Shown here piece after piece: positions 1-5,513 of a stretch of 64,000 bases of DNA; position 1 is the stretch's first letter; each line of letters opens with the position of its first letter. Below the pieces are notes generated by a model. It was not told the DNA's origin. It saw only the letters and a program-made list of their open reading frames with translations, and searched no databases. The translations under genes were made by a program, and so were the position numbers. The stretch is taken from assembly GCF_014201505.1 (NCBI RefSeq), contig NZ_JACHEO010000018.1, forward strand, positions 1-64,000, given 5' to 3'. Origin of the DNA: Desulfoprunum benzoelyticum (lineage in GTDB: Bacteria > Desulfobacterota > Desulfobulbia > Desulfobulbales > Desulfocapsaceae).

Positions 1-116
1 CAATGTTCATAGTGAAGCTCCTCCATGATAAAAGGTGGTCCCACTATGACAGCTCAGTGCAGGGAAAAACAGATGCGGTTATTTTGACGGATACCGTATC
101 CCGGCAACCCGGATCA

Positions 117-551
117 GTCGCCCCCCGCGCGGGGGGCGTGGATTGAAACATCAAGATCGCCTCCGCCTGATAGCGGATAGCGGGTCGCCCCCCGCGCGGG
201 GGGCGTGGATTGAAACAGTATACCTTGACCACCGATCGCACGAATTCAGGTCGCCCCCCGCGCGGGGGGCGTGGATTGAAACCGGGAAAAGGAGGCGGAA
301 GCCAAGGCAACATGGTGTCGCCCCCCGCGCGGGGGGCGTGGATTGAAACCCCTGCCCGCAGTGCGGGACCATGCAGCGGCTGGGTCGCCCCCCGCGCGGG
401 GGGCGTGGATTGAAACTTTTTGGCGGGTTTGGCCTGCACCTCGGGGGTTGCGTCGCCCCCCGCGCGGGGGGCGTGGATTGAAACGTTTTCTTCCTTCATC
501 TTCGCCAGGTCGTTCTCCGTCGCCCCCCGCGCGGGGGGCGTGGATTGAAAC
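117..551 (+). CRISPR. CRISPR array, 7 repeats, type I-C-like repeat
   Basis: Seven identical 33-bp repeats start at 117, 184, 250, 317, 384, 452 and 519. They are separated by six unrelated spacers of 34, 33, 34, 34, 35 and 34 bp. Each repeat begins GTCGC, carries the 16-bp palindrome C6-GCGC-G6 (a hairpin in the crRNA) and ends ATTGAAAC, the 5' handle typical of type I-C and related type I systems. In type I-C arrays the leader lies on the GTCGC side, so it would be within 1-116; that stretch is not strikingly AT-rich. The last repeat (519-551) is not degenerate and no further repeat follows. No cas gene is in the window, so the subtype rests on the repeat alone. The short proteins readable through the array are artefacts of the repeats. 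Confidence 0.97.
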
Positions 552-944
552 TCCTTACGTTGTCGTGTATGATATTAATTCACGGTTATGGCGATTGAGC
601 TGCGGATCGTTAATCGCCATACAGCGCGGGGGTTGCCGCAGCGGCCTGTCCGTCCTCACCCTATAATACATCAACTTCCCGTTTGGTCGGCTGTTGAGAT
701 ACTACCGCTTCTCGAAGGGCAGCAACATCCAAATCTCCAGCTTCACGCCTTGCGTTTCAAACACCACCAGCAACCTCATCTTTTCCCCAGTCGTTCCCCG
801 CTCCGAAACCCTGCCTGAAACATTTCCCCCACCCCACCGCTGCGCCTTGTAAATCGTCATTCCTTCCGGTAGGCTGAAGGCAAGGCCAGCGACCCATCAC
901 TGCACGGCGTCATGCCGTGCCCACCGCCAACATGGAGGTTTCAC
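552..944. other. Intergenic stretch after the CRISPR array, with one inverted repeat
   Basis: No convincing gene. The only structure seen is a perfect 10-bp inverted repeat (arms 587-596 and 612-621, TATGGCGATT and its complement) around a 15-nt loop. No T-tract follows, so it is not a typical intrinsic terminator. A ribosome-binding site GGAGG at 934-938 belongs to the flavodoxin gene. Confidence 0.5.
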
Positions 945-4267: not shown

Positions 4268-5458
4268 TCAGTGCCCGCAACCGCAGGATGGCGGACAGGA
4301 AGAGCCTTCGCCTTTTTTCGGTCCGGCAGCCGGTGCAATCGGAAAACCGCTGTGAAAGGTGGTCTCTCCCTTCGGACCGGCTGACTTGCGATGGAAGGTG
4401 GCTGCCAGCGGCTTGACCGATATCAGCAGCAGAACCGCCACACCGGTGTACTGCAGCCATTCCGGCACCAGTTCGGCCGCCTCGCCGATAACCGCGGCCG
4501 GGACGATGCCGAGAAAGGCATAGAGTTGATCGACCAGCAGGCCGAAGGCCACCGTGCAGACGGCGAGCACCAGCAGATAGCGCAGGGTCCCCCGCTTGCC
4601 GAGAAGGCCGACCAGAACCGTCAGCGAGGTGACGTTGGTGGCGGGGCCGGCGAGGAGAAAGACCAGGGCGGCCCCGGGGCTGACGCCCTTCAGAATCAAG
4701 GCCGCGGCGATCGGGGTCGAGGCGCTGGCGCAGATATAGAGCGGGATGCCGATGACGAGCATGACAAGCATCGAGGTGATGCCGCCGCCCAGCCAGCGGG
4801 CCATGAAATCGTCGGGGATCAGGACGGTGATGACGGCGGCGAGCAGCAGGCCGACAGCGAACCAGCCGACGATATCGCCCCAGACGTCGGTGACGGCGAA
4901 CCGCAGACCGGCGGCGATCTTTTCGCCCGGCCGGTGATGGCGCCGGTGCACCTCGTCGGGGCAGTCGACACCGTCGCAGCAGTTGTCGACCGGGCAGCTG
5001 CGGTCGACTTGGAGCGGGCCGCTATCGTTCGGACGGTGCATCAGGTTTTCTGTCCATCCTGCTGTAACTGCGGTGATAAAAGCGGAAATCGGCCGGACGA
5101 TCGTCATGATCGGATCGAGCAGGGCGTAGGTGATGAAGATCGAATCGATACCGGACTCCGGGGTCGAGATCAGGAAGGCGGAGACCGCCCCCCGGTTCGC
5201 CCCCTGCTTTTTGAGGGATGCCGCCGCCGGCAGCACGCCACACGATCAGAGCGGCAGCGGGACCCCGAAAAAGGCGGCCTTGACGACCGGGAGGAACCGG
5301 CCCCGGCCGAGATGGCTGGCAACGGTTCCGGGGTTGAGGACAACCTTCACCAGCCCCGCCACGACGATGCCGAACAGGATGTAGATAGAGGAATCGAGCA
5401 GGATATCCCAGGCCGCCGCCGCAATGGCAATTGCGAATCGAACACTTTCTTGAATCAT
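4268..5458 (-). CDS. SO_0444-like Cu/Zn (heavy-metal) efflux permease, probable selenoprotein with in-frame UGA
   Basis: A 396-residue inner-membrane permease of the DUF318/COG0701 type, read through one in-frame TGA at 5248-5246. Upstream of the TGA the protein ends ...FFGVPLPL; directly after it, in the same frame, it continues SCGVLPAAASLKKQG. The family has PLCSCGVLPAA here, so the UGA exactly replaces the first Cys of the Cys-x-Cys motif. A hairpin begins within 20 nt after the UGA. About eight membrane helices flank a Cys/His-rich cytoplasmic loop (CPVDNCCDGVDCP...HRRHHRPGE), and the C-terminus is Cys-rich (SSCPPSCGCGH); both suggest metal binding. ATG 5458 has AGGTG 6 nt upstream. The ArsR gene lies just upstream on the same strand. 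The alternative is a pseudogene with a nonsense mutation. Confidence 0.8.
5219..5235 (-). promoter_or_regulatory. Putative bacterial SECIS hairpin
   Basis: On the mRNA a stem of UGCUGCC pairing with GGCGGCA (one G-U pair) closes a GGC loop. The loop starts 17 nt after the UGA codon of the permease. Position and a G-rich apical loop fit bacterial SECIS elements, which lie within the coding region directly downstream of the UGA. Inference from pairing only. Confidence 0.5.
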
Positions 5459-5513
5459 GCTGTACACCTACGAAATCTTCTGGTTATTCTGAAACTCACG
5501 GCACATCTTCCGC

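Follow-up and report, generated by a model that had tools for sequence, protein, structure and literature searches.

The gene at positions 5458-4268 on the reverse strand of the window, the stretch of 64,000 nucleotides of Desulfoprunum benzoelyticum DNA analysed here, is with high probability the selenoprotein form of the SO_0444-family Cu/Zn efflux permease. Its reading frame contains a single in-frame TGA (5248-5246) and is open on both sides of this codon with no frameshift, just as the earlier note on this DNA had described, and it ends on a TGA of its own (4270-4268); an upstream GTG at 5467 offers an alternative start. From the sequence evidence, the internal UGA is predicted to be decoded by the ribosome as selenocysteine (Sec), giving a full permease of 396 residues that carries Sec71. 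The marks of a bacterial selenoprotein gene, namely an in-frame UGA, coding that continues past it and Cys in the homologues, were all found, and the earlier proposal of a probable selenoprotein is supported by the Sec genes of the organism, by a bacterial SECIS (bSECIS) hairpin and by the alternation of Cys and UGA among relatives.

When the frame is read through the UGA, the resulting protein matches the curated model NF033936 (SO_0444 family Cu/Zn efflux transporter) with 407.2 bits against a cut-off of 300, residues 17-349 falling on positions 2-349 of the 351-position profile, which agrees with the suggested family of Cu/Zn exporters, and it also matches PF03773 (ArsP_1) with 144 bits. 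The UGA stands where the family's invariant C-x-C motif has its first Cys (PLPL-U-SCGVLP), as the note had said, and across 30 diverse relatives that were aligned, residue 71 (Cys or Sec, opening the C-S-C of PLPL-C-S-C-GVLP), Cys73 and Cys243 do not vary. At this membrane motif two relatives (L043 and L056) have CCC instead of CSC. The two halves of the protein are joined by a Cys-rich loop (SCPVDNCCDGVDC, encoded at 4992-4954 on the reverse strand), probably a second metal-binding region. A search of plasmids gave no match.

The codon at this place was compared across loci drawn from several hundred genomes belonging to the same phylum and from the named relative Desulfobulbus sp. Tol-SR; a contig scan with one protein had found 3 loci only, and the wider genome search gave far more. 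Codon 71 is TGA in 42 loci (one genome being counted twice, as L053 and L097) and TGC or TGT in 76 loci, so that Cys codons and UGA alternate at exactly this codon; a protein tree of 157 rows shows at least 11 switches of state, and all five of the nearest neighbours of the window gene have TGA. Compared with three close relatives, dN/dS lies at 0.16-0.28 upstream as well as downstream of the UGA, which indicates that selection is purifying on either side of the codon and that the frame is maintained. These results bear on the reading in which the UGA is a true stop and the gene is a pseudogene or encodes two separate proteins of 73 and 322 aa. The ordinary ORF list does give both pieces, with GTG at 5236 as the start of the second, as had been foreseen for a standard gene caller; however, 42 loci that are otherwise open have UGA at this codon, with other in-frame stops only at gene ends or, once, at a second Sec site, the invariant P-L-P-L-C-S-C motif would be broken by such a split, both sides of the codon are under purifying selection, and the hairpin discussed below is characteristic of the UGA forms (41/42 compared with 13/76 Cys forms). 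A true stop is therefore very unlikely and already largely refuted. An error of sequencing or assembly that turned TGC or TGT into TGA would need one base only, and draft genomes do carry errors, but the same TGA with its hairpin recurs in independent genomes, including some of the same genus at dS of about 0.5-0.9 to the window, leaving this explanation a negligible probability. Taken together, the alternation, the TGA shared with the neighbours and the purifying selection exclude both a sequencing error and a pseudogene.

Downstream of the UGA, on the same strand, a bacterial SECIS hairpin extends from 5236 to 5218, consisting of an 8 bp stem with one G-U closing pair and a GGC apical loop (5228-5226), GUGCUGCC-GGC-GGCGGCAU, with a folding energy of -11.2 kcal/mol and a distance of 17 nt from UGA to loop. 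The earlier note had reported a 7-bp stem with a GGC loop starting right after the UGA; the hairpin and its loop proved real, whereas the start lies 9 nt past the UGA and the stem has 8 bp. In the published bSECIS model the loop measures 3-9 nt and has G within its first two positions, the stem has 4-16 bp, the loop lies 16-37 nt from the UGA and the energy is at most -7.5 kcal/mol (PMC13188914), and the window hairpin lies within every one of these limits, which answers the suggestion that the 60 nt after the UGA be checked against such a model. A dinucleotide shuffle of a 66-nt region here gave an unremarkable z of -0.78 because the DNA is GC-rich, while synonymous recoding that kept the protein and respected the bSECIS geometry gave p 0.007 and z -3.5. 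It is the comparison of orthologues in their UGA and Cys forms that is decisive for the reality of the hairpin. A model-fitting hairpin at or below -7.5 kcal/mol follows the codon in 41 of the 42 UGA forms and in 13 of the 76 Cys forms (Mann-Whitney p 1e-16), and synonymous recoding destroys it in the UGA forms, with a mean z of -3.2 and p no higher than 0.05 in 88% of them, and leaves it unaffected in the Cys forms, where the mean z is 0.0 and 3% reach that p; codon choice favours the hairpin in UGA forms only. The stem pairs adjacent to the loop are likewise retained among UGA forms but not among Cys forms, pair 1 in 37/42 and 21/76 respectively, with paired changes in variants such as GUGUUGCC/GGCAACAU. 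The best hairpin is slightly displaced in five UGA forms (L051, L064, L070, L080 and L089).

The genes for Sec insertion that the note had proposed to look for are all present in the genome, selD twice. The genome encodes selA (632 bits), selB (341.7 bits against a cut-off of 242) and tRNA-Sec (selC; 69 bits against a cut-off of 47, called tRNA-SeC with anticodon tca by ARAGORN), and each of its two selD genes itself has an in-frame UGA near the start (GSG-U-ASK and AAG-U-AAK); therefore, the organism is equipped to decode UGA as Sec. Among the relatives, selA was matched at E 1e-60 in 36 of the 41 genomes with UGA at the first site; three of the other five are incomplete (75-89%) and two are single-contig assemblies at 97%. 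These two genomes (G515 and G516, with loci L100 and L130) have the UGA form with a good SECIS and no selA match at E 1e-60, possibly through a broken selA, frameshifts or some other cause. Over a wider count selA is present in 51/56 UGA genomes and in 24/24 and 62/68 Cys genomes, and since nearly all relatives have it, UGA and Cys forms alike, its presence serves as a consistency check only. UGA is the leakiest of the stop codons, which would favour a different route of decoding, either near-cognate read-through with Trp or Cys or a global change of the code. Such a route is extremely unlikely: the window gene and many of its relatives terminate on UGA, so there is no global reassignment, the alternation is always with Cys and never with Trp, and a SECIS together with a full Sec machinery would be purposeless.

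With selenocysteine as the preferred reading, a role in metal handling can be proposed. In the predicted structure of the permease (mean pLDDT 77.6), residues 65-71 and 238-243 fall in breaks between the helices of the two halves; no solved structure was matched by sequence and the fold gave no significant match. Judged by their invariance and by their predicted place at breaks of two membrane helices, Sec71, Cys73 and Cys243 may form a single soft-metal site in the transport path. There a selenolate would hold thiophilic metals such as Cu(I) or Zn/Cd more tightly than a thiolate does, or exchange them more quickly. The gene immediately upstream, also on the reverse strand, encodes an ArsR/SmtB-family metalloregulator of 117 aa (5867-5514; NF033788 with 98.8 bits against a cut-off of 55, and a PF01022 match), probably the repressor of the operon, which would turn the operon on under metal excess. 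A regulator of this family stands beside the permease in 101 of the 163 loci retrieved, many of them with short flanks. In Shewanella, SO_0444 mutants are sensitive to Zn and Cu and can be complemented, and the gene is needed for growth under Zn/Cu stress (PMC3219624); in Nitratiruptor, Cd and Cu induce the orthologue (PMC10092412). By analogy with this family, the window permease is predicted to export Cu/Zn. Elsewhere in the window (111-556) there is a CRISPR array of 7 repeats (GTCGCCCCCCGCGCGGGGGGCGTGGATTGAAAC) with a spacing of about 67 nt.

Some relatives combine Cys at the first site with an in-frame TGA in the Cys-rich loop that separates the halves, some 86-92 codons further on, within the sequence G-C-G-U-P. 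When another class was searched, 16 loci of this kind came to light in 15 genomes, all with CSC at the first site (L144:1501-2553, L145, L146, L149, L151, L152, L154, L160, L161, L162, L164, L172, L174, L175, L176 and L177), and their close relatives have GCGC at this place. Each second-site UGA is followed by a hairpin with an apical loop of GNU or GUN type, which reaches -7.5 kcal/mol or below in 12/16 UGA forms as against 2/19 Cys forms. Over 15 sequences of this second-site SECIS, 91.4% of the stem cells pair, both partners have changed in five of the seven pairs, and covariation scores 0.578, against 0.316 for shuffles (0/500) and no more than 0.312 for slid controls. The tree shows at least 8 switches of state at the second site, and selA is found in all 15 of the genomes with a second-site UGA. 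One further locus (L070:535-1440, genome G071) has UGA both at the first site and in the loop (DAST-U-ADNHCSCG), and possibly encodes a double-Sec exporter. Since alternation with Cys and a dedicated SECIS are seen at both sites, it is very likely that the SO_0444 family has two independent Sec sites, the membrane U-x-C and the G-C-G-U loop, and that selenium was recruited twice to different metal-binding places. A review lists the family among prokaryotic selenoproteins as UxC with one Sec only, with neither GCGU nor CxCU (PMC13188914), and judged against it the second site is apparently uncatalogued, so that these relatives would widen the published description of the family. The window gene itself offers a clean and well-supported case of Sec in a metal transporter, where it probably acts as a metal ligand and not as a redox catalyst, in a selenoprotein gene that is split or truncated under ordinary gene calling; and the frequent switching between Cys and Sec among its relatives provides natural pairs for testing what selenium contributes to soft-metal transport.

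The novelty that the earlier note had implied was not upheld, as the 2026 review already has an entry for the selenoprotein form (SO_0444 family Cu/Zn efflux transporter, NF033936, UxC, 1 Sec, WP_014809615.1, GenBank annotated), and the window gene is a further member of this catalogued family and not a new phenomenon (PMC13188914). The catalogued form and the window protein share the curated model, the U-x-C motif with one Sec at the first Cys, and a UGA with a bacterial SECIS, and there is no difference of substance between them other than that the window belongs to another genome. The ArsP_1 permeases (PF03773) and SaoE (NF040736) belong to the same Pfam family with weaker similarity (144 and 166 bits, respectively); SaoE identity was considered for the window protein and rejected, its score being far under the cut-off of 325. 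With SO_0444 of Shewanella oneidensis (PMC3219624), the window protein has in common the permease family, by the name of the curated model, and an adjacent gene for a metal-responsive regulator, which is of ArsR/SmtB type in the window and ZntR-like (MerR-type) in Shewanella. Sec at the first position of the motif is the feature in which the window protein differs from the Shewanella permease, the latter being set apart by its description and not by its sequence.
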